64,000 bases of DNA from Desulfobacula sp. (lineage in GTDB: Bacteria; Desulfobacterota; Desulfobacteria; Desulfobacterales; Desulfobacteraceae). Positions 45,193-64,000 of this stretch are shown here, in pieces (position 1 is the stretch's first letter; each line of letters opens with the position of its first letter). Below the pieces are notes generated by a model, which was not told where the DNA came from, searched no databases, and was given only the letters and a program-made list of their open reading frames with translations. The position numbers and the translations under genes were made by a program. The stretch spans positions 100,457 through 164,456 of the forward strand of contig JAMPXP010000013.1 in the NCBI GenBank assembly GCA_023701135.1, in the 5' to 3' direction.

Positions 45193-45267
45193 GGTCCCAT
45201 CGTCTAGTGGTTAGGACGCTGGCCTCTCACGCCGGTAACACGGGTTCGAATCCCGTTGGGATCACCA
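45193..45267 (+). tRNA. tRNA-Glu (CTC anticodon)
   Basis: GGTCCCA/TGGGATC acceptor stem, anticodon loop CTCTCAC, GGTTCGAATCC T-loop, encoded CCA. Confidence 0.96.
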
Positions 45268-45296: not shown

Positions 45297-45342
45297 AAAG
45301 CCATCCAGAGGGCCGACGGCCCCCCGGACGGCTTTTTCTTTT
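45297..45342 (+). terminator. Terminator downstream of tRNA-Glu
   Basis: AAAAGCCATCC...GGACGGCTTTTTCTTTTT. Confidence 0.6.
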
Positions 45343-46433
45343 TACTGACCCCCAAATATGGATTTTGGGAGATCATTTTCCCTATCCTCACTATGAGAGC
45401 TGTTTACCGTTAAAGATTCAAGTGCTTTCCGAGCGCTTTCAACACCGAGGCTTTTCAGATATCTGTTTGTTGTTGTCGGGCTCTTATGTCGGAGGATTTC
45501 CTGAATTACAGATAGATTGAATCCCTTGCTATATAGAATGCTTGCTGTCAGATGCCGGATAGCATGAAATCCAAATGGCTTAACCCCTGCTTTTTCACAG
45601 AGTGTTGCCATAAAATGCTGTCGATGTTTAAATGGGCCTCCATAATATTCCGCACAGAAATTTTTGGTTTCTATACAGACAAAAACATATTCACTTTCTA
45701 CCGGACAATTATTTTTCCACCAGGATAATCCATCAAAGAGTTCTTTGACCATGGGGAGCCATTCACATTCAAAGCTTCCATTTTCTCTTTTCCGGGTCCA
45801 CAGTCGAACACGCTTCTTTTCAAAATCAAGATCATTCCATTTCATCCGGAATAATTCGCCACGCCTACAAGCCAGATAAATTAAAGCCTGAAGCATAACC
45901 CGGTCTTGACCATGGGCCTGCTCAAATGCTTTCCAAAAATCTTCTTCTGGTGGGATATACCTTGGGGACCTCTCTTCCGGCATCTTTTGGATGTCAAAAG
46001 GATTGTCCTTGGGTAATGGTGGGTTCATAAACATCATGCCCCAGTTCCAACCGGCTAAAAGATTTTTTCTGTCTTTATTGGAGGCGTATCCGCTTCTCTC
46101 CTTTTTCTGTTCCAAAAGATAAGGTCGAACTAAGGCAGGGGTTAATTTTTCGGCGGCTATATGTGAATCAACCTTTTTAAAAAATCGTTTAAAAGCAAAT
46201 GTTTTTTCCGTATAAGTTTTTTTTACATATCTTTCCTGACAATCATCCAGATAAGCCTCCGCCCAATCAGCTAAACAGATTATGCCGGTCTTCTCTTCCC
46301 ACTCTTCTTCTGACAGCCGAAGGCTGCTTTCCCATGCTATTGCCTCTTTTTTCGTCTTGAACGTTTGTTCCTTTCTCTTCCCATTCTTTTTCACCTGGGC
46401 CTTCCAATTCCCATTCTTCATTTGATATGGCAT
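45342..46433 (-). CDS. int: Tyrosine recombinase/integrase
   Basis: ACRRGELFRMKWNDLD (R), HAIRHLTASILYSKG (HxxR), LRHKSPTTTNRYLK (H...Y). Confidence 0.94.
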   Translation of the reverse strand: MPYQMKNGNWKAQVKKNGKRKEQTFKTKKEAIAWESSLRLSEEEWEEKTGIICLADWAEAYLDDCQERYVKKTYTEKTFAFKRFFKKVDSHIAAEKLTPALVRPYLLEQKKERSGYASNKDRKNLLAGWNWGMMFMNPPLPKDNPFDIQKMPEERSPRYIPPEEDFWKAFEQAHGQDRVMLQALIYLACRRGELFRMKWNDLDFEKKRVRLWTRKRENGSFECEWLPMVKELFDGLSWWKNNCPVESEYVFVCIETKNFCAEYYGGPFKHRQHFMATLCEKAGVKPFGFHAIRHLTASILYSKGFNLSVIQEILRHKSPTTTNRYLKSLGVESARKALESLTVNSSHSEDRENDLPKSIFGGQ

Positions 46434-49871: not shown

Positions 49872-50125
49872 GGTCACCATAGTCCTTATAAAGTCCTCGA
49901 TACTCTAAAACTGAAACCCTTGGTACTGTAGTCTTGGTCCTCGTAGTCACCATGGTCACCATAAATTTAGTATTTTAAATATTCCTATCTCTCCAATACT
50001 AAAATACTATCCAAAACAAATTCTTTAAAATTATGATGACTTCGAGGACCATGGTGACCAAGCCTTTATAGTAGGGCTTCTTGAAACTACGCCATGGTGA
50101 CCTAATCGAATTTATCGAGGACCAT
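49872..50125. other. Candidate replication origin: iterons in dyad symmetry around an AT-rich core
   Basis: GGTCACCAT at 49872, 49954 (GTCACCAT at 49946); ATGGTGACC at 50051, 50094; TGGTCCTCG 49935 versus CGAGGACCA 50043, 50116; AT-rich core with TAGTATTTTA/TAAAATACTA. Confidence 0.6.
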
Positions 50126-52154
50126 TTTCCCAGTCTATTAATCCCTCCATACGGACAAGGTTTTCATACTGCCGCCTGCATTCTTCAAGAGATGGAAAGC
50201 GATATACATTGATCCGGCTCCCGTTTCTGTTGATTTTTACTTTGTCTATGCCTTTACAGAACTTACCTATTCCTCTGCCGAGCAACTGGGGTGTTAAAGG
50301 AAAGCGTTCTTTCAGGTTGCTGGAGAATTGAAGATATTCCCCATAAAGGGACTGACATTCAATCTCCCCTGTCCATCCTTCCTGACCCGAGGACAAGGTT
50401 CCGTCTTCAAGCCTTTCCATCCAGAACTTCCCGGCAACATCCATGGTGTTTCTGATTTGATCCAACAAAGCATCCGTTTTGGGAGCTTGCCTCAAATCTT
50501 CCATTGTGTATGACCATTCGAGAAGATCATAGAGCATGGCCTCATAGCCACCATTTTTCATTTGATTTACAATGGCTTTGAAATATTGATGGTCCTGTTG
50601 GTGTGAGTTGGAAACATCGGTAACGTAAAATCGCCTTTCATCTACCCCGGCAGGTATGACCCAGTCGTTATTTGACGCGATGATAATGTTCATACAGTTC
50701 CTGACGGTAATAGCATCCTTTCCCTTCTGTTCAATCACAAGTCGGGGCTCGGTGATCATATTTTTGATGGCCCCCTCACTCTGTTTATCACCTGCCCAGA
50801 AACCTTCATCGGCAAAAACCAGCACCTTGTTTTTAAGATGATGATTGAATCGGCCTAGAAGATGACTTTGTTGAGCAAGCTGGATGTAATGCTGACCGAA
50901 CAAATACCCGAAGCAATTCACAAATATGCCTTTTCCTGTCCCGCGTCCTCCACGCAGCACAATGGATGTTCCCGGTTTTTCACCGCCTGGGTCCTGAACT
51001 ATCCTTGCCATCCAACTCATGACCCAACCGTAGTGATTTTCACTACGGTTCGTGATGATATTGAAGATGTGATCACGGAATAGGGACCAGTCCCCTTTGA
51101 CCGGTTTAATCGGGAAGCCTGTCCAGAGATTATAATATTCCGGTAATTTTTTTCCAGGTTCAAAAACGACTCCTTTGTATTGCCTTCTGTCCGGAGATTT
51201 AAGCCAGTAATCAGCGGTATTGATTTCTCGCTTAGCATCATTGGGGTCCATAACCATTTTGTTCGCAAAATACTTCCGCAGATCCGTATCAGAAGTGAAT
51301 TCCAGCTCGATATTTTCTGATTCAGGGTTCTTGGTTTCTTTAAGAATGAGACATCTACCGCCAACCCAGGTAATGGCATACTGAGAATTAAATTGTTCAA
51401 TAATCTGGTCATAAATGTTGCCTGCTTCTTTTTTATTAAGGGTTTCTTGAACCGCTCGATATCCATCCGCTTCTTTTGCGTACTGGTTAAAAAGGTCATT
51501 GAAATCTGAATTTACCGGGCATAATACACATTCTATGCCCAACTCCTCTGCTGCCTCCATTGCAGATTTTTTACCGCTGTTATGGCCGGTTTTTTTTTCT
51601 GTTTCAATGTCATTATCGGCGGCTATGATTATGCGTTTGTTAGGGAAACGATCCTTGAGCTTGGCGCAAACCGCCTTGATATTACCGGAAGAAAAAGCTA
51701 TTACAACAGGGATTTCAACTGCCTCAAAAACCGTTGCCCCGGTTGCAAAGCCTTCAACAACATAAATTAAATCAGTATCCGTCAGATGACCCATGGAATG
51801 GAAACACCCAGAAACCGAGCCGCCGGGGTGAAAACTTTTCTTCCCCTCAACATCGATGTATTGAACTGACACCGGATTGTCCTCATGGTCCCCGAAGTCA
51901 CTATAAATCGGAACTATCAAACGATTATAATTCTCTCTGATGCCAAACGCTTTGATCCTCTTTTTAATCAAATAAGGGTTATCGGGTTTTGCTTCGTAAG
52001 CCATTTTCCAGATTTCAGAGGCCTTTTTACAGGCTGCTGACTGCCTCTCCTTGATTTCTTCAAATTTAATCGGTGGATTTTCATCCCTTTCTTTAACGAT
52101 CATCGGACATACTGCTGAAAACACCTTATTATCTTGCTCTAGCTCAATCTGCAT
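50112..52154 (-). CDS. Toprim-primase/D5-like helicase of phage/plasmid type
   Basis: Toprim-like VVEGFATGATVFEA...RIIIAADND; helicase VLRGGRGTGKGIFVNCFG and VFADEGFWAGDKQSEGAIKNMITEP. Confidence 0.88.
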   Translation of the reverse strand: MQIELEQDNKVFSAVCPMIVKERDENPPIKFEEIKERQSAACKKASEIWKMAYEAKPDNPYLIKKRIKAFGIRENYNRLIVPIYSDFGDHEDNPVSVQYIDVEGKKSFHPGGSVSGCFHSMGHLTDTDLIYVVEGFATGATVFEAVEIPVVIAFSSGNIKAVCAKLKDRFPNKRIIIAADNDIETEKKTGHNSGKKSAMEAAEELGIECVLCPVNSDFNDLFNQYAKEADGYRAVQETLNKKEAGNIYDQIIEQFNSQYAITWVGGRCLILKETKNPESENIELEFTSDTDLRKYFANKMVMDPNDAKREINTADYWLKSPDRRQYKGVVFEPGKKLPEYYNLWTGFPIKPVKGDWSLFRDHIFNIITNRSENHYGWVMSWMARIVQDPGGEKPGTSIVLRGGRGTGKGIFVNCFGYLFGQHYIQLAQQSHLLGRFNHHLKNKVLVFADEGFWAGDKQSEGAIKNMITEPRLVIEQKGKDAITVRNCMNIIIASNNDWVIPAGVDERRFYVTDVSNSHQQDHQYFKAIVNQMKNGGYEAMLYDLLEWSYTMEDLRQAPKTDALLDQIRNTMDVAGKFWMERLEDGTLSSGQEGWTGEIECQSLYGEYLQFSSNLKERFPLTPQLLGRGIGKFCKGIDKVKINRNGSRINVYRFPSLEECRRQYENLVRMEGLIDWENGPR

Positions 52155-52929: not shown

Positions 52930-53537
52930 GTTTTAATCCTCTCGAATCGAGGAGGTCTTTCAGACTGACAATGGAAACTTCAAGACTCATCAATGCAACA
53001 AGTTTTAATCCTCTCGAATCGAGGAAGTCTTTCAGACTGGCTAAGTGTGGTTTTACTTCATCATTTTCTGATGTTTTAATCCTCTCGAATCGAGGAAGTC
53101 TTTCAGACCGCAGCATACGTAGGTTTAACCTGGGAAAACCTCAAGGTTTTAATCCTCTCGAATCGAGGATGTCTTTCAGACTCGCGGTTATTGCGACACA
53201 AGGGGTAGTGAAGACTATGTTTTAATCCTCTCGAATCGAGGAGGTCTTTCAGAAACAGTTATAGAATTAAAAAATACATGGAATAGTATGTTTTAATCCT
53301 CTCGAATCGAGGAGGTCTTTCAGACACAAAATCCTTCCTAAAACTGTCTGAAGCTGCTATGTTTTAATCCTCTCGAATCGAGGAGGTCTTTCAGACATTT
53401 TCCGATGTCATTGAAGATTACAACCGTGAAGTTTTAATCCTCTCGAATCGAGGAGGTCTTTCAGACCGGATGTCATGGTACATCCACAAGAGGGTTAGAG
53501 CGTTTTAATCCTCTCGAATCGAGGAGGTCTTTCAGAC
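52930..53537 (-). CRISPR. CRISPR array, 9 repeats of 36 nt and 8 spacers of 34-37 nt
   Basis: Repeat GTTTTAATCCTCTCGAATCGAGGAGGTCTTTCAGAC starting at 52930, 53002, 53073, 53146, 53219, 53290, 53361, 53431, 53502; unique spacers; predicted transcription on minus strand (repeat ending GGATTAAAAC). Confidence 0.97.
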
Positions 53538-53778
53538 CCTGGGTACTCAGGAATCTCTCCAGTCAATAATCTTCAAGGCTAATTTTACTGACCTGGTCGA
53601 TTTTCGACCTTCGGAAAAAGATTTCATAGTTTTTTTCCAGGCATTTTTCTTACAACCTTTTGTAATTCTTAAATAATATAAAATTATGGACCTCATGGTC
53701 TCTAAATGTAGGCTCAATCATACCATAAAAGCATTTTAAATAAAGACAGATATGAAATTTTTTGACGCAGCTTTGGGT

Positions 53779-54693
53779 TCATTCAACATCCTCTGCCAAT
53801 TTTCGAATTACAAAGCCACCCATACCCATGCTGACTCCTTTTCCAATATGAGTAAGTCCGGCATAACCGATCATGGATTTCAGTTCATCCGGGATATGGC
53901 TGATTTTTATCTGGCCTTGGATAAACATTTCATCTTTCCTCGCAGCATCAATTTGAAAAGTTTTAAACGACCTTGAAATAGTGTCAACACTTCGGATAAG
54001 CTCGTCGGTTGTCAATCTTTCGGTTGTTTCCATCAATGACTGAATCCTCCTTTCAGCACCTTTGATAAAGTCAAAAAAATCAGGCTGGAGTATTGGCTTT
54101 TTGTTGCGGTTAAACAACACAGGTGTGATAAATGCTATTTCCAACCGCTCATCAGATTGACTGCCAGGAATATAATCGAGTTTATTTTGAGCCTGGATAG
54201 CAGTGCTTTTCCTCCAAGCACTCTTGCTCCAGACGGATACATCCTTGATCTTGAATCGGCCGTAGTTATCAGACTTGTAAGTACGCCATTTACCCATCCC
54301 GGTAAACTGACCGGCATATTCAATTGCCGGTAGAAAGCGACCGGTAAACATACGGTCCTGGGCCATATCACAAAACAGTCTGATTTCAAAGGATAACGAT
54401 TCGCCTTCCCGAAATATCAAACGATTGCCCAGAGGCGGGAGGATAACAAATTTGGATGAAGCATTTTTGTTGTAGATCTGAGGCATGAACAGCATGGGAT
54501 ATTCACATCCGTTTTTGGCATTTTTACAGATCTGGCAATTATCCTGTTCTTTGCATGGGAATTGTCTTTTCATGACAGTTTCCAACATCGTTCTTAAATG
54601 ATAACCTTTTCTTAAGGCATCAAAAATCATAAGCGTGCTTTCAACTTCAATTTCAATCCGGTACCGCAGCCATGGGATATTGATTTCAGGCAT
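53779..54693 (-). CDS. cas6: Cas6-like CRISPR RNA-processing RAMP endoribonuclease
   Basis: 304 aa; C-terminal Gly-rich loop GYAGLTHIGKGVSMGMGGFVI typical of Cas6 C-terminal domain; CxxC pair CKEQDNCQICKNAKNGC; adjacent to array. Confidence 0.8.
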   Translation of the reverse strand: MPEINIPWLRYRIEIEVESTLMIFDALRKGYHLRTMLETVMKRQFPCKEQDNCQICKNAKNGCEYPMLFMPQIYNKNASSKFVILPPLGNRLIFREGESLSFEIRLFCDMAQDRMFTGRFLPAIEYAGQFTGMGKWRTYKSDNYGRFKIKDVSVWSKSAWRKSTAIQAQNKLDYIPGSQSDERLEIAFITPVLFNRNKKPILQPDFFDFIKGAERRIQSLMETTERLTTDELIRSVDTISRSFKTFQIDAARKDEMFIQGQIKISHIPDELKSMIGYAGLTHIGKGVSMGMGGFVIRKLAEDVE

Positions 54694-55549
54694 TGAACAA
54701 CCTCGCCAGTTTCAACAGGAGTAAAGCAAAGTTTTTTGGCATTTCAAAAAGGGTGAGGGTAAACAGGATCTCCTTTTGTTTCAATGAACACAACTGTAAT
54801 ATTTTGTTTTTCAGATATTCTTTATTTTCCTGATCTTCATGGAAATAGGAGATTATCTGCTCAAGGTACTGGTATTCAAAATGCTTCCGGATTTCATCAA
54901 CTCCAGGTAAAAGATGATTTAAATCCTCCCGAGAAAGAACCAGGGATGTATCATGGATAAATTCTGAAGCATAGATTTGAGCATCTGAAAAAATGAATTT
55001 AATTCTTCCGTTTTCTTGTGGCTGAATGTGGATGCTGTGGTGCTGGGCCATCAACAGTGTATTGCCGATATGCTTTATTGTCCGGTTGAGTTCAACCACA
55101 ATTACATTGGTTCTGTTCCAGGAGACATTGTTCAGAAGAGAATAAACCAGATTTCTGTTGCAGAACAGACAAGAGTGATGGTTGTCCAAAAGCAATAACA
55201 GGCCTTCAAATGGTATCTGCTCTTCTCGGGTATCCGGATTGAAAATCCAGACAGCAACATCCGGAGCATGGTATTGTTTTTCATCAGAGGGTGAAAAAAG
55301 TTCCTTTTGTGTTTGTGAGACCATCCCACACAAAAAGCAATATCCATCTGCTCCTGATTCACGAGTTAGGCACCTTCGGCATAGCGGATTAAATGGCGGC
55401 ATCCATGCGGTCGGTTTTTGTAAAAGAACCCCATCTTTGAAAGCCTGATCATTTTCAGAAATCAAATGGACCGCGCTCAATAGTCCTTTAACAGTTTTCT
55501 GTTCAAACAGGAAAGAATGATACTCGCTCGGGATTATTTGATTTTTCAT
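54686..55549 (-). CDS. Unknown Cys-rich CRISPR-operon protein
   Basis: 287 aa; CRRC...CFLC and CLFC motifs; overlaps both neighbouring cas genes by a few bp. Confidence 0.75.
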   Translation of the reverse strand: MKNQIIPSEYHSFLFEQKTVKGLLSAVHLISENDQAFKDGVLLQKPTAWMPPFNPLCRRCLTRESGADGYCFLCGMVSQTQKELFSPSDEKQYHAPDVAVWIFNPDTREEQIPFEGLLLLLDNHHSCLFCNRNLVYSLLNNVSWNRTNVIVVELNRTIKHIGNTLLMAQHHSIHIQPQENGRIKFIFSDAQIYASEFIHDTSLVLSREDLNHLLPGVDEIRKHFEYQYLEQIISYFHEDQENKEYLKNKILQLCSLKQKEILFTLTLFEMPKNFALLLLKLARLFNA

Positions 55550-58218
55550 TTAAATTCTAAAAGTGATTTTAATTTCCCCGGGATGACGGCTTTGGGATAA
55601 TCCTCTTTGAAAAAAGCCTGGAATGTCATCGGCTGAAAGGCAGGGTTTGAATATTTTTCTCTCCAGTGATTGGTGTTTTGATTAATCACATAGACAGTGC
55701 TTTGATTGAAATCCACATTTATTTTACAGCTCCCAAAACCCAGAAATTTTCCTTTACCCGTCTTATGGGCCAGTGTCTCTTCGAGAAGAATACTGGAGAT
55801 CAGTCCCTTGAGTTCTTCCAGCCTGAGATTCCAGAAGCCGACATCAAAAGAAAACACAGAGCCTTTTTCAGCGCATCGGCAGGGTGTAATTTTAGGATCA
55901 TGTTCGCTGGGGATCTGGTTTGCCGGATACTTTTTTACAATTGAGCTGTTAAAGAAATCAAAATGCCTGAAAATTCGAACATCGTTGTATCTGTCATAGT
56001 CTCTTTTTCCGCTCCCGTTTTTGGGGTATACCTTTTCCAGCAAGTCAGAATAATGATGAGGCATCCCATACCAGGACATGGCTCCTTCACAAAGGGGAGC
56101 AAAAGAAAAGTTCAACCTGCCCATGTATCCTTTGTTGCCATCGAGAAAACCGAACAGTGATTCTGCTTTGGCCTTATCGGATAACAGGAGGTAATTATTT
56201 CTGATCATCCCTTTCAGGGTTTTTGAGGGAATGGCATACTCCCGGGGGTCCGGTTTGTTTTGGTTATCGGGGGGACCCATATGGAAAAAGTCCCATCCTT
56301 GAGAAGCGGGTGCCATGTCAATGGTCGGCTGTCCGCTTTCTTTGATGTGGAGCGGGGTTAAAACCGTCAAATGACAAGACAGCGAACCTGAATACCCCGA
56401 GAAAACGGCATGGGAAATCTCTTTCCGATTTTCCGAACACTTAAACATCGAGTTTGCCGGTGCAGGGTTTCCGGCATTGGGCAGGCTTGTTCTGAAACTA
56501 TCCATGGCCTTTTTATAAAGAGCTGTTTTTTCCAACTGCTCCATTGTCCCTTGTTTGACGATCCAGCTTCCGGCTTTAGTTTCCTTTCCAAAGTCAGGGA
56601 TAAATTCAAGAATTTTAGCATTACGCCCGGATCTGATATCAATGCTTGTTATTTCACCTTTTACCCATCCCATTCCGGATGTTTTTTGGCCACCCAGGGG
56701 TATTTGGCCATTCTGCATATCCTGAAGAAGATGGAAGAACAGTCCTGATGCCTGGTCATCCTTGATGTCTTGAAGGTAAAAGGATGTCGTAAATTCAAAA
56801 TCCTTTCCATACGCATACAGAAAATCCATCTTGGCTTTGTCAATGGGTTGGCCGGTTTTGGGATTAATCTGAATGGAATCTACCGAACAATAATTTTTTC
56901 CCCGGGTCAGGTAAGCGTCACTGAATATAATCTTTCCGGCCGATCTCTGTTTTCCGAAGACATCACCGATGATACCGATATCTGTGGGCTCTCCGTTATT
57001 CAATGGCTGATTTAAAAGAGTTCGCATGATTTTTTCAGCCCTGATCCTGAAAGCCCCTTTAATGGTTCCTCCTGGTATGTAAACGTCCCACCCGGTATCA
57101 TTGGTTCTGGTGCCGTTTGAATATTTCCATCCCAGCATACGCATGAAGATCCGGTCATAAGGTGTCTGGCTTCGAGCAACTTGAGGATTGTTTTTTGAAG
57201 AACGAAAATCGCAATTACCTGGTTTCTCGATTTCTGTCAGCACCTTGGAACGATACCATCCCAGAAAATGATTCAGATTTTCGTCATTAGCAACGGCTTT
57301 CCCGAAATTGTTTTTATCTAATGGGAAAGGCCGCCCGTTCCTCTGATGCTCTCTTTTAAAGCCTTCATCTCTAATCTGGTCGAAGCTTCTTATCTGGCCC
57401 GATGCTATTTCTCTTTTTATTTTAAGATGTGCCTGTCTGTTTTGGATCTCTTGGTCAATCCAGCCTGCTATTTTCCGATGGTATCCCTTATTTTCTTTCT
57501 GGCTGTCGTCTTTTCCTTCGTCATGGAACTGCCATCCTACCAGCAGAGGATTTGATAATCTGAATGAAACCCTTATTTCCATGGCATTGGCTGTGTTTTT
57601 GATGGGAGGTTCCACTGTGTTTAATTTTTCAAATTCCCTTGAGGAATTCTCATCCAGACAGAGCCTTATTTTCCCCAATCCCTTGGTTTTTCCCGCACCG
57701 AACCAGAATCTTCCGTCAATAAGTTCTTTCAACAGCAGATAAAGCTTGCCCTTCTGGGTATTGTCAAAAGTGTTGGGGTAGTCCAGGGAAAAATTAAAAT
57801 TGGTACCCTTGAAAATGGTTTCTATCTTGTAATTGGCGTTCTCTTCCATAGACATGCGGTCTCGGTTGAGTCTGATTCCCATCCGCAGGTCATAAAAACA
57901 ATCCTCTTTTTTTCTTGGATCATTAAAACTGCAATCTATTTTAATATTTTTGAAAAAGGCCTCGTTATTTCTATCATCAAACAGGCGCTTATAAAGGCCA
58001 TCAAATAATTTATCGATGTATGTGGTTCCATTCCTTGTTTGATTAGTAAAACCGAGAAATGCATCCATGAGCGCCTTCCCGGGATCTCTGCCGTCTGGTC
58101 TGCCCGGAAGTTCGATGGGCGTACAGTCCCTTTTGTTCTTTCTAGAAAAAAGTGTTTTTAAACCATTGCCTCGATATATGGGGGATTCTGCAATAAGATG
58201 ACCTTTGATTAAAGGCAT
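55546..58218 (-). CDS. Multi-RAMP (Cas7-like) fusion protein, putative single-protein CRISPR effector backbone
   Basis: 890 aa with three Gly-rich RAMP loops (GRFWFGAGKTKGLGKI; IPLGGQKTSGMGWVKG; AHKTGKGKFLGFGSCKI) and two IPxxTxKG motifs (IPGGTIKGAFR with DVFGKQRSAGKIIFSDA; IPSKTLKGMIRN with SLFGFLDGNKGYMGRLNF). Confidence 0.85.
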   Translation of the reverse strand: MPLIKGHLIAESPIYRGNGLKTLFSRKNKRDCTPIELPGRPDGRDPGKALMDAFLGFTNQTRNGTTYIDKLFDGLYKRLFDDRNNEAFFKNIKIDCSFNDPRKKEDCFYDLRMGIRLNRDRMSMEENANYKIETIFKGTNFNFSLDYPNTFDNTQKGKLYLLLKELIDGRFWFGAGKTKGLGKIRLCLDENSSREFEKLNTVEPPIKNTANAMEIRVSFRLSNPLLVGWQFHDEGKDDSQKENKGYHRKIAGWIDQEIQNRQAHLKIKREIASGQIRSFDQIRDEGFKREHQRNGRPFPLDKNNFGKAVANDENLNHFLGWYRSKVLTEIEKPGNCDFRSSKNNPQVARSQTPYDRIFMRMLGWKYSNGTRTNDTGWDVYIPGGTIKGAFRIRAEKIMRTLLNQPLNNGEPTDIGIIGDVFGKQRSAGKIIFSDAYLTRGKNYCSVDSIQINPKTGQPIDKAKMDFLYAYGKDFEFTTSFYLQDIKDDQASGLFFHLLQDMQNGQIPLGGQKTSGMGWVKGEITSIDIRSGRNAKILEFIPDFGKETKAGSWIVKQGTMEQLEKTALYKKAMDSFRTSLPNAGNPAPANSMFKCSENRKEISHAVFSGYSGSLSCHLTVLTPLHIKESGQPTIDMAPASQGWDFFHMGPPDNQNKPDPREYAIPSKTLKGMIRNNYLLLSDKAKAESLFGFLDGNKGYMGRLNFSFAPLCEGAMSWYGMPHHYSDLLEKVYPKNGSGKRDYDRYNDVRIFRHFDFFNSSIVKKYPANQIPSEHDPKITPCRCAEKGSVFSFDVGFWNLRLEELKGLISSILLEETLAHKTGKGKFLGFGSCKINVDFNQSTVYVINQNTNHWREKYSNPAFQPMTFQAFFKEDYPKAVIPGKLKSLLEFK

Positions 58219-58338
58219 TATTCTCTCCTTCCATTTGGGTTTTCAAAAGAGCGGTTTATAACAAAGTTTTGGGAATGTTCTATTTATTCTCAGGAAAAAT
58301 CAAGGAATAAATAACTGTTCTCACCAACACTATCAATT

Positions 58339-58404
58339 TCATAAATCAGGCAGAGCCATTAAAAGGGTAGCCTCTGAAATCTCTGGATTTAAGATAACAA
58401 CCAT
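58339..58404 (-). CDS. Putative 21-aa leader/micro-peptide upstream of the cas operon
   Basis: MVVILNPEISEATLLMALPDL* preceded by AAAGGAGG at ideal spacing. Confidence 0.4.
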   Translation of the reverse strand: MVVILNPEISEATLLMALPDL

Positions 58405-58813: not shown

Positions 58814-59290
58814 TTATACTACGGTATCATCATCCTCCTGATTAAAATCATCTTCAATTTGCTTCTGATTTTTTTCTTCCTCGCTCAGATCTTCTGATAA
58901 AGGGCCTATGATCATCCAATCCTCCACATCGAAAAAATCACACATTTTCATCTTTTCCATTTTGATTGGGATAAATCGGGCATTATCAGGGAGCCTGGCC
59001 CTAAATTGCCTACTGATTTCGCCCTGGAACCAAAGATTACAGGTTTCAACTGTCCTTCCATCATTGAAATTGATGACAAATCTTTTGCCGCCAAAGCCCC
59101 TGGGGCCGGATGTGTTGGCTCCCATCATATAATGCTGGCCGGCGACAATTACCCTTCTTTTTTCATCCTCTTCCGGCATCGTTATTTTTTTGAGCCAGAA
59201 GGAACAATCAAAACAGTTTTCATCCAGATAGGATTCAGGGGTATGATTTCTGATAAAGGGCTTTTTGCAGGATGGGCATATGTTATTCAT
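58814..59290 (-). CDS. Hypothetical protein with N-terminal zinc ribbon
   Basis: MNNICPSCKKPFI...CFDCSFW; start at MNNICP inside the 58814..59305 ORF. Confidence 0.65.
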   Translation of the reverse strand: MNNICPSCKKPFIRNHTPESYLDENCFDCSFWLKKITMPEEDEKRRVIVAGQHYMMGANTSGPRGFGGKRFVINFNDGRTVETCNLWFQGEISRQFRARLPDNARFIPIKMEKMKMCDFFDVEDWMIIGPLSEDLSEEEKNQKQIEDDFNQEDDDTVV

Positions 59291-59471
59291 GATTTTCTCC
59301 TTCATCGCTTATATTGGCATCTTCCAGGGCCTTCTTGCTGCAGATAGGGCATATCGCATGGCTTATAATCGGAAGCCCCATCTTTTTTAATGATAGGGTA
59401 AATTCGGTGTGTTCGCATTCTTTAGTGCCCATGGATTTACCGCACCAGGCACATTTGATTTCATAGACCAT
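59283..59471 (-). CDS. Small zinc-ribbon protein
   Basis: IKCAWCGKSMG...AICPICSKKAL. Confidence 0.6.
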   Translation of the reverse strand: MVYEIKCAWCGKSMGTKECEHTEFTLSLKKMGLPIISHAICPICSKKALEDANISDEGENHE

Positions 59472-59535
59472 TTTTTATCTCCTTAATTTTTAAAATGACC
59501 TGCATCTCTACTGGTAACAGGGTTACTTAATTGAT

Positions 59536-60486
59536 TTACGGTTTGACCAGGGAAAGGATCTGCCCCCCGGTTTTTTCGAATTTATAGACATCCGCTGTGG
59601 ACAGGCCGTCCATTTTTGCTGAAGCAGTGAATGCGTTGATGATATGAAACATCGTATTGCCCGGCTCCTGTTCAAACACTGCTTTTACGATCTCTGCTTC
59701 ATTCTGGGAAAGGCCGAACCGTCTGCAAAAAGCTTCAATGGAACGAACAGGGTCATGCACATGGGATTCACGAGAGAGTTTGAATTTCATCCGGCTCCTG
59801 TCTGACCCATCCCTCACCATGGCAAGGGTGGCGGCGAAGTTTTTCAGGCCCCGGGAACTGATATGCTTGAACCTGGATTCCCTGGCCTTTGCAATGGAGA
59901 TGAGCCCGTTGGTGCAGATCAAACGATAGAAGAAGGATTCAATGCTGAATGCGATCAGACCGACCTCGGAATTGGCAAAAGCTACGCCTGGAATAATTTC
60001 ATCCAGAGGACCCCCGGCATTGACCCCAAAGGCTTTGTCATATTCCGGGATCTTCAACAGGAACATGCCATGATCAAGTGAATACTGAACCTGCAGATGA
60101 GGCTCAAATCCCAGTTGAATGAGCTGGGCCAGGATTTCCATATTGTCCAGGGGCTGATACCGTTCTGTAAATACAGCCCGGAGTGAGTTCCCGTTGAACC
60201 GGCAAAAGAAGGTATCCCGGTTCTTTTTTTCCTGTTCGATCCAGTAATTGAGGTTCCGGGCCTGCAAATCTTGCGGACACCGCATAAGATAAGAATGAGG
60301 CACCCGCAAGCGGTTGGCTAATAGGTGTTGGGCGCTGGCGGCCACATCGACCTGCTTACCGGATATCCACATCTGCTTCAGGCTGTCAAAAGACATTTCA
60401 TGAACCGGTATGATTTCGTCAAAATGATTTGCTGATTGCTGATGAACTTCGTTGATAACGGTTTCAAGGGTGGTGATTATAGGCAT
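59536..60486 (-). CDS. DUF932-like phage/plasmid protein
   Basis: FSIESFFYRLICTNGLISIAKARESRFKHISS, typical of DUF932; mobile-element context. Confidence 0.75.
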   Translation of the reverse strand: MPIITTLETVINEVHQQSANHFDEIIPVHEMSFDSLKQMWISGKQVDVAASAQHLLANRLRVPHSYLMRCPQDLQARNLNYWIEQEKKNRDTFFCRFNGNSLRAVFTERYQPLDNMEILAQLIQLGFEPHLQVQYSLDHGMFLLKIPEYDKAFGVNAGGPLDEIIPGVAFANSEVGLIAFSIESFFYRLICTNGLISIAKARESRFKHISSRGLKNFAATLAMVRDGSDRSRMKFKLSRESHVHDPVRSIEAFCRRFGLSQNEAEIVKAVFEQEPGNTMFHIINAFTASAKMDGLSTADVYKFEKTGGQILSLVKP

Positions 60487-60551
60487 GATATTCTCCTTTT
60501 TATTGGTTTTGGGATTATTTAAGGCGGGGTTTGGGGCGCTGGAAGGGCTTC

Positions 60552-61097
60552 TTAACCTTGTTCATAGGCTTCCTGAATCAAGCCCTGGTCTGCAAAACTG
60601 AAGAAGCTGTCATCATCCATGTTGATAATCAGATGCTCATGGACAGTTATCCCGATGATAGATGCGGCCTGAACAATTCTTTTCGTAACATCCTTGTCCG
60701 ATGCTGAAGGCGTAAGGTCACCACTAGGGTGGTTGTGCCCCAATATGAGGGCGGCCGCATTTGCCAGGATGGCTGGTTTTAGGACCTCCCTTGGATGAAC
60801 TGAAGCAGACGACAAACCGCCGATAGAAACGATATTCATACCGATGATAATGTTTTTGGCGTTAAGCATCAGGACACAAAACTGTTCTCTGTCAGGCTGT
60901 CCCATGTTTCTAATCATATCCTGGAGATGTCTTTGAGCATCAGAGGGATTATACAATGCTTGCGGACTGAATTTGACCCGTTCATCTCTTACCAGGCTTA
61001 CACGGTATGCCGAAACGAAGTGGGTCATCTGGTTTTGGGTTTCTGATACGCTGAAAAGATCCAGTTGCTTGCATTTTTGATGTGTTAATTTTCTCAT
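60552..61097 (-). CDS. RadC-like JAB-domain protein
   Basis: VHPREVLKPAILANAAALILGHNHPSGDLTPSASDKDVTKRI...HEHLIIN; start at MRKLTHQ with RBS aggagg. Confidence 0.9.
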   Translation of the reverse strand: MRKLTHQKCKQLDLFSVSETQNQMTHFVSAYRVSLVRDERVKFSPQALYNPSDAQRHLQDMIRNMGQPDREQFCVLMLNAKNIIIGMNIVSIGGLSSASVHPREVLKPAILANAAALILGHNHPSGDLTPSASDKDVTKRIVQAASIIGITVHEHLIINMDDDSFFSFADQGLIQEAYEQG

Positions 61098-61112
61098 GGC
61101 TCCTCCTAATAA

Positions 61113-61153
61113 AAGAACCGGCATCCGGAGAATTACCCCGGATACCGGCTTTT
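61113..61153. terminator. Hairpin upstream of radC-like gene
   Basis: ACCGGcATCCGG...CCCGGATaCCGGcTTTTT. Confidence 0.65.
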
Positions 61154-61171
61154 TCGATTGTCGTTAAAATT

Positions 61172-61516
61172 TTATGGATAAATGACGGTACAGTCGTCAA
61201 AACTGATTTCCCATGGACCCAGTTTATCGCTGGAAGAAAATCCGTTGTTGAGCCAGATACCGCCGCTGAACACTTTGGGATGATGTTTCTGGTCAAAATC
61301 AATAAACAGTTGGCAGATGTACTTCCACATTTCCTGGCCGACGGTGGGGAATCCTTCTAATCTTTCGATGCTCTCCCAGTCCGGAAAAAAGAGTTTGTAA
61401 ATCCCGACCAGGGCGGAGTTTTGATGATCTGCTTTCTCGAATATCAACTGTAGTCGGCGCTGGAGTTCTTCTTTTTTGAAACTCTGAAACTTGGTTCGGG
61501 TTAAAGTCTGTTTCAT
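61172..61516 (-). CDS. Hypothetical protein
   Basis: Start at MKQTLTRTKF with RBS aaaggaga. Confidence 0.6.
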   Translation of the reverse strand: MKQTLTRTKFQSFKKEELQRRLQLIFEKADHQNSALVGIYKLFFPDWESIERLEGFPTVGQEMWKYICQLFIDFDQKHHPKVFSGGIWLNNGFSSSDKLGPWEISFDDCTVIYP

Positions 61517-61598
61517 GGCATCTCCTTTTAAATAAAAAACCCTCCAGGATTGCTCCGGGAAGGCATCTAATTTTAGATTTACGGGTTGTTTGGCTGGT

Positions 61599-61946
61599 TT
61601 AAGTGATATGTTCCACAAGCCTTTTGATGGCGTTAAAAGGGCTTAATTTCCCAGTTCCCAGGACCTCCTTGACCTGGTCCCCCTGGAGGAAAATGCTTCC
61701 TTGTTTTTCGGCTCCTTCAAAGATTTCAAGGCCGACATAATCAAGCCGGGGATTTCTGGACAAGACAAAGGTTTCTTTGCCTTCCCGATAAACATCAATG
61801 TCATCCTGATATCCGGCGGACAGTTTGTGGGTGTGGCTTCCGGATTTATCTTTGAATGTGATGACAAGGCAGGGATTGTGTCTTTTGGCATGAAGCATTT
61901 CCCAGAAATCTTCTTTGCCGATTCGGTAATTATGAATTCTTCGCAT
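61599..61946 (-). CDS. Hypothetical protein
   Basis: 115-aa ORF with RBS aggag upstream. Confidence 0.55.
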   Translation of the reverse strand: MRRIHNYRIGKEDFWEMLHAKRHNPCLVITFKDKSGSHTHKLSAGYQDDIDVYREGKETFVLSRNPRLDYVGLEIFEGAEKQGSIFLQGDQVKEVLGTGKLSPFNAIKRLVEHIT

Positions 61947-62148
61947 GGGATGCTCCTATCCTGTTGAATGGGCAGGATTGGCACTTGGTTTTATCCCGAC
62001 AGGCTGAACAGATTTTCCCAGGGTCCAGGGTCCTGCCCAGATATTCGAAGACATCTTCCAGGGCCTTTGTCATTGGCATTCCGGAAGCCCAGGCGATGCG
62101 TCTTAATGTGGCGCTGTGATGCCGGGAAAGTTCAGGAGTATAGGCCAT
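61930..62148 (-). CDS. Small Cys-containing protein
   Basis: MAYTPELSRHHSATLRRIAWASGMPMTKALEDVFEYLGRTLDPGKICSACRDKTKCQSCPF. Confidence 0.6.
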   Translation of the reverse strand: MAYTPELSRHHSATLRRIAWASGMPMTKALEDVFEYLGRTLDPGKICSACRDKTKCQSCPFNRIGASHAKNS

Positions 62149-62620
62149 GGCGGAATCCTCCCTGATATGAAATGGAGCGCTGAAGAATGATGACCTTACA
62201 CTCGGGGCATGATATTTCTTCACCCAGACCTGACCGGGTGATTTTCTTACAGTTCGGGCACTCGATTTCAAGGATATCCTGGTGTTCAGGAAGGGGCCAC
62301 CCTTGGGCTCGGCAGATTCTTTCTACCTGGTGGGCCGGGCGCACCTGCCAGAAAAGGTCGTTTTCAATCTCAAAAATACCTTTGACCTGGATCTCGTCCA
62401 GATCATGAAATGAAAAATATCCCCACTCCGACATCTGGAAATCATTGTTCAAAATTGCAAATCCCCAGAAAACGTCTTTCCCATCGAATTCACTAACATA
62501 CCAGTCGCAATTGCCGATGAAAAAATGAAGATAGATGGGCTTGTCCTTCAGGGGTGTTTCTTCAGTCCTGTATAATTCGGGGATGCTTGCCAATTGTTCT
62601 TTTGTTGGTTTATTCCACAT
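62132..62620 (-). CDS. DUF2958-like protein
   Basis: LASIPELYRTEETPLKDKPIYLHFFIGNCDWYVSEFDGKDVFWGFAIL...EWGYFS. Confidence 0.8.
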   Translation of the reverse strand: MWNKPTKEQLASIPELYRTEETPLKDKPIYLHFFIGNCDWYVSEFDGKDVFWGFAILNNDFQMSEWGYFSFHDLDEIQVKGIFEIENDLFWQVRPAHQVERICRAQGWPLPEHQDILEIECPNCKKITRSGLGEEISCPECKVIILQRSISYQGGFRHGLYS

Positions 62621-62650
62621 GATTTTTTTCTCCTATAGATTGTGGCTGTA

Positions 62651-63499
62651 TTAGCCGTTTAAATGCTGGATAAATCTTGAAGCCTGTACTCTATCAAGGC
62701 TGTCTAAATCCTTGTCAAACAGTCTCTGAACTGCCTTATTCAGCCCTTCCGTGGTCAAGCCCCTTCGTCCTGCTATTCTCTGAATCAGGTCCTTTTGCTT
62801 CGGTGTGATGGGCTTGTCTTCTGGAAAAACGGTGTTACAAGTTGTCTTCGATGTCAGATTGTAATTACAGTTTCCCATATCTGGCATATTGTTTTTCAAT
62901 GTGTGTCGATGTGTTTTGATGAAGATGCCTGTCAATCCTGCTGTGCGGATAACGGCATCGACCATGGCGCTTTTACACGCCATTTTTATGCTGATGTTCA
63001 GGTTCCATCCGTCTTGTTTTAAATGTCTCGCTCCTGTCCCCTCCCCGACAGTAGTTCCCGCCTGGGTCCGCAACTCGCACTTCAAGACAACTGTCTGAAT
63101 CTCTTGGTGGTGAAGGCCGGCAATTTCATATTGCTGGACAGTCGGAAAATGGGCAGTCAAGCCCAGCAAGCGGGCTATCTTCTCTGCTCCTGACTTCCAC
63201 AATGTCAACATTGAAAAATGGGAAAAGTCAGAACACAGAAAGGGCGCTCCAGCTCGGACGTATTTACAATTTTCAAAAATGTGGGATCTGCCGTAATCAA
63301 TATCCGGGTTAAGGTTCTTCCGTATCCACTGGATAAGCGCTTGATGGTTCTTTTCTCGCCTTTCCAGTGCTTTCTGAAAGGTCTCTGCTGGCAGATCCAA
63401 CGGGCTGGATGGAAATACCGAAATTGAACCCTTTGGTGGGTCCCCGGGCGGGCTGATAAATCTTTTTAACGTGTCTGTTTCTGACAATTGCTGAAGCAT
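62651..63499 (-). CDS. Mobile-element protein resembling phage ssDNA-annealing-associated proteins
   Basis: GEGTGARHLKQDGWNLNISIKMACKSAMVDAVIRTAGLTGIF pattern. Confidence 0.55.
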   Translation of the reverse strand: MLQQLSETDTLKRFISPPGDPPKGSISVFPSSPLDLPAETFQKALERREKNHQALIQWIRKNLNPDIDYGRSHIFENCKYVRAGAPFLCSDFSHFSMLTLWKSGAEKIARLLGLTAHFPTVQQYEIAGLHHQEIQTVVLKCELRTQAGTTVGEGTGARHLKQDGWNLNISIKMACKSAMVDAVIRTAGLTGIFIKTHRHTLKNNMPDMGNCNYNLTSKTTCNTVFPEDKPITPKQKDLIQRIAGRRGLTTEGLNKAVQRLFDKDLDSLDRVQASRFIQHLNG

Positions 63500-63826: not shown

Positions 63827-64000
63827 GATTTGGTTCTCCTTTTGATTAGGTGGGGGGGATGGTTGATTTTATGGATGGGAAAAACTGTGATACTGATGGG
63901 TTGGGTAAATGCCTAAAATGCTGAAAAGGCTGAAAGGCTTGTCAATAAAGCCCCTAGCCCCTATAATATTTTAAATCGGAATTAAAAAACCTTCAAAAGC

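Follow-up and report, generated by a model that had tools for sequence, protein, structure and literature searches.

A Cas11-less, array-linked type III CRISPR-Cas module in Desulfobacula sp. related to subtype III-I

Main

Can a backbone of fused Cas7 domains cut RNA without a Cas11 domain, which mutation of gRAMP suggests is essential? This question is posed by a CRISPR-Cas locus in a genome of Desulfobacula sp., analysed here within a 64-kb stretch of DNA that we call the window. We give a probability of about 0.75 to the reading that the locus encodes a class 1 type III module of three genes that forms a deep sister to subtype III-I, has its own array, resides on an integrative element and probably acts in crRNA-guided RNA binding or cutting without Cas11. 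Subtype III-I was reported in November 2025 from >160 genomes and combines an extremely diverged Cas10 with a Cas7-11-like effector built of three Cas7 domains and a Cas11 domain (PMC12669027). In the open-access literature, no experimental study of the subtype was found. The III-I loci examined have no linked array, so their crRNA repeat is not obvious, and the window supplies a matched set of repeat, Cas6, effector and Cas10 remnant. Its effector, at 890 aa, is far smaller than the Cas7-11 of subtype III-E, which matters for tool building if the protein works. The locus is also relevant to the sequence of steps by which fused effectors arose, and it is a ready test of the minimum parts of an RNA-guided machine.

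Organization of the locus

The module is encoded on the minus strand, on which the three genes precede and the array comes last, the opposite of the array-first order given in a first-pass annotation of this DNA. The array and the three overlapping genes that it described were confirmed, and the features are as follows.

52930..53537, minus strand: CRISPR array of nine 36-nt repeats and eight spacers of 34-37 nt, all spacers different
53538..53778, minus strand: A+T-rich stretch of 241 bp that separates cas6 from the array and, by its sequence, is the likely leader
53779..54693, minus strand: Cas6-family crRNA-processing nuclease, 304 aa (Pfam, PADLOC, hhalign)
54686..55549, minus strand: probable Cas10 remnant (Cas10i-like), 287 aa (position, zinc-finger motif, profile match, predicted fold)
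55546..58218, minus strand: Cas7-11i-like effector of 890 aa, in which three Cas7 domains are fused and the insert is absent (NF049957, alignment)
55549..56421, minus strand: Cas7.3 of the effector, residues 600-890, with D643 conserved
56599..57462, minus strand: Cas7.2, residues 253-540, in which D355 aligns with D698 of Sb-gRAMP
57463..57534, minus strand: Cas7.1/Cas7.2 junction, residues 229-252, the site of the extra residues in measurable III-I relatives
57535..58218, minus strand: Cas7.1, residues 1-228, delimited by alignment with III-I effectors

Adjacent genes overlap by 4 and 8 bp. The order of effector, ~292-aa protein and Cas6 is found in 61/61 III-I loci that hold all three genes, and the order in the window is identical. 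The description of a compact module that joins fused RAMPs to a separate Cas6 also stands, with three RAMP stretches recognized (Pfam E 7.7e-24), as do the reported absence of adaptation genes and that of HD, CARF and TPR-CHAT genes.

The effector is a sister of Cas7-11i

The best curated model for the 890-aa protein is NF049957 (Cas7-11i, subtype III-I), which it matches with an E value of 2.6e-192 and 641.5 bits, below the NCBI curated cut-off of 800 bits. The protein is ~37% identical to III-I effectors (35-40%), with the identity spread over Cas7.1, Cas7.2 and Cas7.3, and III-I proteins in the same alignment are about 48-71% identical to the reference. In a tree of effectors built without the insert columns, the window protein falls outside all 70 full-length III-I effectors (SH-aLRT 92), with a terminal branch 4.1 changes per site long; the outgroup branch is very long and the root uncertain, and the window protein stands apart regardless. 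No relatives were found in phages, plasmids or viral contigs.

Every measurable III-I effector (about 80 loci in a GTDB-based collection) has 183-193 extra residues between Cas7.1 and Cas7.2, and the window protein has none. Sampling of the order (390 genomes), the phylum (395) and the Chloroflexota (400) turned up no other relative without the insert. The insert is the Cas11 domain according to the domain list of PMC12669027, on which the name rests. A structural model of it is largely helical (pLDDT 86), and its best fold match, the sole non-trivial one, is a weak match to 7zol_B, a III-E Cas7-11 (prob 0.66, E 0.12). The insert could not be equated with a known Cas11 homologue by sequence, as neither PDB nor PADLOC gave a useful match and hhalign gave none to a III-E protein. 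A relationship to the Cas7.4 insertion of III-E was also rejected, as the weak, low-scoring stretches that suggested it were lost on direct comparison.

Because a domain that defines III-I was tested for and is absent, the module is classed not as III-I itself but as a sister of III-I that lacks Cas11 and has a linked array. Assignment to a described subtype, the outcome that the first-pass annotation had set against its own proposal, is borne out in large part, by the match to NF049957, and fails at the curated cut-off and at the missing domain. With both the outgroup branch and the window branch long, the tree is compatible with loss of the insert in the window or with its gain by III-I. It is possible, though doubtful, that the locus preserves the state before Cas11 insertion, that III-I arose by gain of the insert and loss of array linkage, and that the 890-aa protein would be a functional RNA nuclease with no need of Cas11.

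A Cas10 remnant beside the effector

The first-pass annotation had listed no Cas10 in this locus, a statement that is not borne out, given the 287-aa protein whose gene adjoins that of the effector. Neither a GGDD motif nor an HD domain was found in this protein, and the family libraries name no family for it. It shares two CxxC pairs (a zinc finger of the form CxxC...CxxC) with the ~292-aa family of III-I loci, and it aligns with the profile of that family (hhalign E 1.4e-4; 15 bits in hmmsearch). The six best PDB fold matches of its AlphaFold2 model (pLDDT 82.9, pTM 0.76) are all chains of type III Csm/Cmr complexes, and next come GGDEF domains, whose fold family includes the Cas10 palm; these matches are of moderate strength (E 0.007-0.5, prob at most 0.93, TM about 0.3-0.4). 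On the basis of locus position, shared CxxC pairs, profile alignment and predicted fold, there is moderate evidence that the protein is a Cas10 remnant without a cyclase motif.

Cas6 and the CRISPR array

The 304-aa protein matches CRISPR_Cas6 in Pfam (E 1.3e-10), Cas6 in PADLOC (6.5e-26) and the III-I Cas6 family in hhalign (E 5.6e-11). Its match to the III-I Cas6 model NF049959 (1.4e-9, 37.7 bits) does not reach the curated cut-off of 160. In many Cas6 enzymes, the catalytic histidine sits in the N-terminal helix. The window Cas6 has a histidine in this helix at residue 32 (H32), and none of 57 III-I Cas6 proteins has one there.

The array repeat reads GTTTTAATCCTCTCGAATCGAGGAGGTCTTTCAGAC on the plus strand and GTCTGAAAGACCTCCTCGATTCGAGAGGATTAAAAC in the crRNA sense, that is, on the minus strand. 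The four repeats nearest cas6 (53290-53537) are identical and the variant repeats are all distal, so the leader likely lies on the cas6 side of the array. Hairpins formed by the repeat RNA (-8.4 kcal/mol) are unexceptional compared with those of shuffled sequences (z -1.2). No spacer targets were found in phages, in the window or, for three spacers searched as exact 23-25-mers, in viral contigs; relatives gave nothing beyond chance, and plasmids gave one partial match of 26 nt (E 0.3). A search of viral contigs for the repeat core also found none.

A linked array, as present in the window, was found in 0/79 III-I loci by a detector that recovers both the window array and the type I-C array of the host genome. 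At least 1.5 kb of sequence is available downstream of the operon in 52 of these loci and on both sides in 45. The repeats that do occur in them are tandem or coding, and masked stretches are present in only four locus records. These array-less loci (L068-L146, for example, L111, L121 and L140), with a Cas6 that has no histidine in the N-terminal helix, are perhaps supplied with crRNAs in trans.

Catalytic residues and predicted activity

The module most likely functions in the manner of III-I, binding RNA under crRNA guidance and probably cleaving it. Family relationship, gene order, the absent domain, the array and residue conservation are observed directly; the steps of crRNA processing, complex assembly, targeting and cleavage that follow are inferred. 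Cas6 would probably cut the array transcript into crRNAs with a AUUAAAAC 5' handle, and the 890-aa Cas7x3 protein would probably wrap the crRNA. The 287-aa Cas10 remnant would probably cap the complex at the 5'-handle end, in a structural role without cyclase activity. The complex would then bind matching RNA and cut it, probably at the Cas7.2 site (D355) and perhaps elsewhere too. All of this predicted RNA binding and cutting would proceed without the domain that, in every measurable relative, is taken to be Cas11.

Residue conservation bears on the last step. In hhalign comparisons, Cas7.1, Cas7.2 and Cas7.3 of III-I align with Cas7.2, Cas7.3 and Cas7.4 of III-E, and D355 of the window protein aligns with the III-E aspartate represented by D698 of Sb-gRAMP, mutation of which abolishes cleavage (PMC9729208). 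Mutation of D298 in the Cas11 (Csm2-like) domain of Sb-gRAMP also abolishes RNase activity (PMC9729208). The window effector keeps D465 and D643, and the position of Sb-gRAMP D547 (numbering inferred) is lysine both in III-I and in the window. The acidic loop of III-I Cas7.1 (D26/D28/E39 in the numbering of L111; 99-100% conserved) is replaced by K27/K29/R40. We considered D26/D28 of this loop as the equivalent of D429; the alignment places lysine there in III-I, and no lost catalytic site is claimed. Cleavage of target RNA at the Cas7.2 site is thus likely but not assured, as D355 is kept, whereas the K27/K29/R40 loop and the need of Sb-gRAMP for D298 point the other way.

Since D298 of the Cas11 domain is required for cleavage in Sb-gRAMP, an effector that lacks Cas11 may be able to bind RNA but not to cut it. 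An alternative reading is built on this requirement: without Cas11 and with its altered Cas7.1 loop, the system no longer cuts and silences transcripts, whether from the host or from competing elements, by binding alone, in keeping with an operon that has no nuclease gene and with carriage on a mobile element. However, D355, D465 and D643 are all kept, and the lysine at the D547 position runs throughout III-I, so loss of that site is not special to the window protein; we consider this reading unlikely, though far from negligible. A decaying III-I system, with the inserted domain deleted and the locus drifting, would fit a singleton on a long end branch that has lost several III-I-conserved residues and whose distal repeats are altered. 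It would not fit three long, intact open reading frames that overlap at their starts and stops, the identity of the four leader-side repeats, the retention of most conserved charged residues or a divergence that extends beyond the junction into all domains, and decay is accordingly a poor bet. The view of the first-pass annotation, an unrelated, minimal and orphan Cas10-less type without known kin, can draw on the lack of a library family for the 287-aa protein and on the missed NF049957 cut-off but is largely refuted by full-length homology to Cas7-11i, a Cas10-like predicted fold and identical gene order, and it is very improbable.

Relation to other class 1 systems

The reading that we prefer, a Cas11-less sister of III-I, follows from a detailed likeness to that subtype. 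Both have three fused Cas7 domains that are homologous over their full length, a diverged, cyclase-less Cas10 and a Cas6 in the same order, overlapping genes, and no Cas1 or Cas2. They differ in the residues at the Cas11 position, which III-I effectors carry and the window effector does not; in array linkage; and in the scores of the window effector and Cas6, both of which are below the NCBI cut-offs for III-I (641.5 versus 800 and 37.7 versus 160 bits).

With Cas7-11e/gRAMP of subtype III-E, the window shares a single-chain fused Cas7 effector and the catalytic D698 position. By contrast, the III-E effector comprises four Cas7 domains, Cas11 and an insertion, and the subtype, with a self-processed crRNA and often TPR-CHAT, has neither Cas10 nor Cas6; none of these traits applies to the window. 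Membership of III-E was rejected given three Cas7 domains, the presence of a Cas10 remnant and Cas6, and a score against the III-E model NF041225 of only 109.5 bits of the 700 required. The III-D2 variant with Cas7x3 (PMC8730458) likewise has three fused Cas7 domains and separate Cas10 and Cas6, but the window protein is far closer to Cas7-11i by sequence, and no full Cas10 was found in the genome. Type VII (Cas14) is also an RNA-targeting class 1 system with a C-terminal remnant of Cas10 and no adaptation genes; it differs in having a beta-CASP nuclease, which is absent from the window operon, and the backbone of the window system is one fused chain.

Three further observations were made among the relatives. 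In two Desulfobacterales MAGs (L064/L114 and L065/L130), Cas7-11i is present as two open reading frames, with breaks near residues 230 and 825, reflecting a frameshift or a real split. An N-terminal piece of Cas7-11i lies at a contig end in a draft genome of Piscirickettsia salmonis (L145, NZ_AMFF02000190.1), a case of possible contamination or of an unexpected host. One relative genome encodes a III-E-like Cas7-11 of 1723 aa (L190, G028:C600) as well as a type III locus of multiple genes, several of them for RAMPs (L191, G028:C763).

Host genome and mobile element

Outside the module, no RAMP protein other than the 890-aa effector was found in the host genome. A genome-wide check for cas1, cas2 and cas10 gave a divided answer: cas1 and cas2 are present, in a separate locus, and the Cas10-palm search returned GGDEF-type matches only and no full Cas10. 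These matches carry GGEEF/GGDEF motifs and were read as diguanylate cyclases, not as Cas10. The single cas1 lies inside a complete type I-C locus (cas1/cas2) with a repeat unrelated to that of the window. As this is the sole Cas1/Cas2 found, the earlier suggestion that adaptation genes are borrowed in trans is unsupported.

Carriage on an integrative element, proposed in the first-pass annotation, gained strength from two features of the window and from a direct repeat elsewhere in the genome.

45193..45267, plus strand: tRNA-Glu, the last 45 bp of which (45223-45267) are the likely attL
45342..46433, minus strand: tyrosine-type phage integrase (PF00589, E 2.9e-21) adjoining tRNA-Glu

An exact copy of the 45-bp 3' end of tRNA-Glu is present on contig C29 of the same genome (G000:C29:17955-17999). 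From these sequences, the module likely rides on an element integrated at tRNA-Glu. The contig that holds the window ends at window position 64000, and the element probably continues on C29. Flanking genes at 50112-52154 and 58814-63499 encode a Toprim/DUF5906 primase, DUF932, RadC and DUF2958, which fit a mobile-element backbone. The stretch C29:1-17999 (L205) encodes a type III restriction-modification system, an SNF2-type helicase, an Mrr-type nuclease and a caspase-fold protein and is the probable other half of the element, a defence island.
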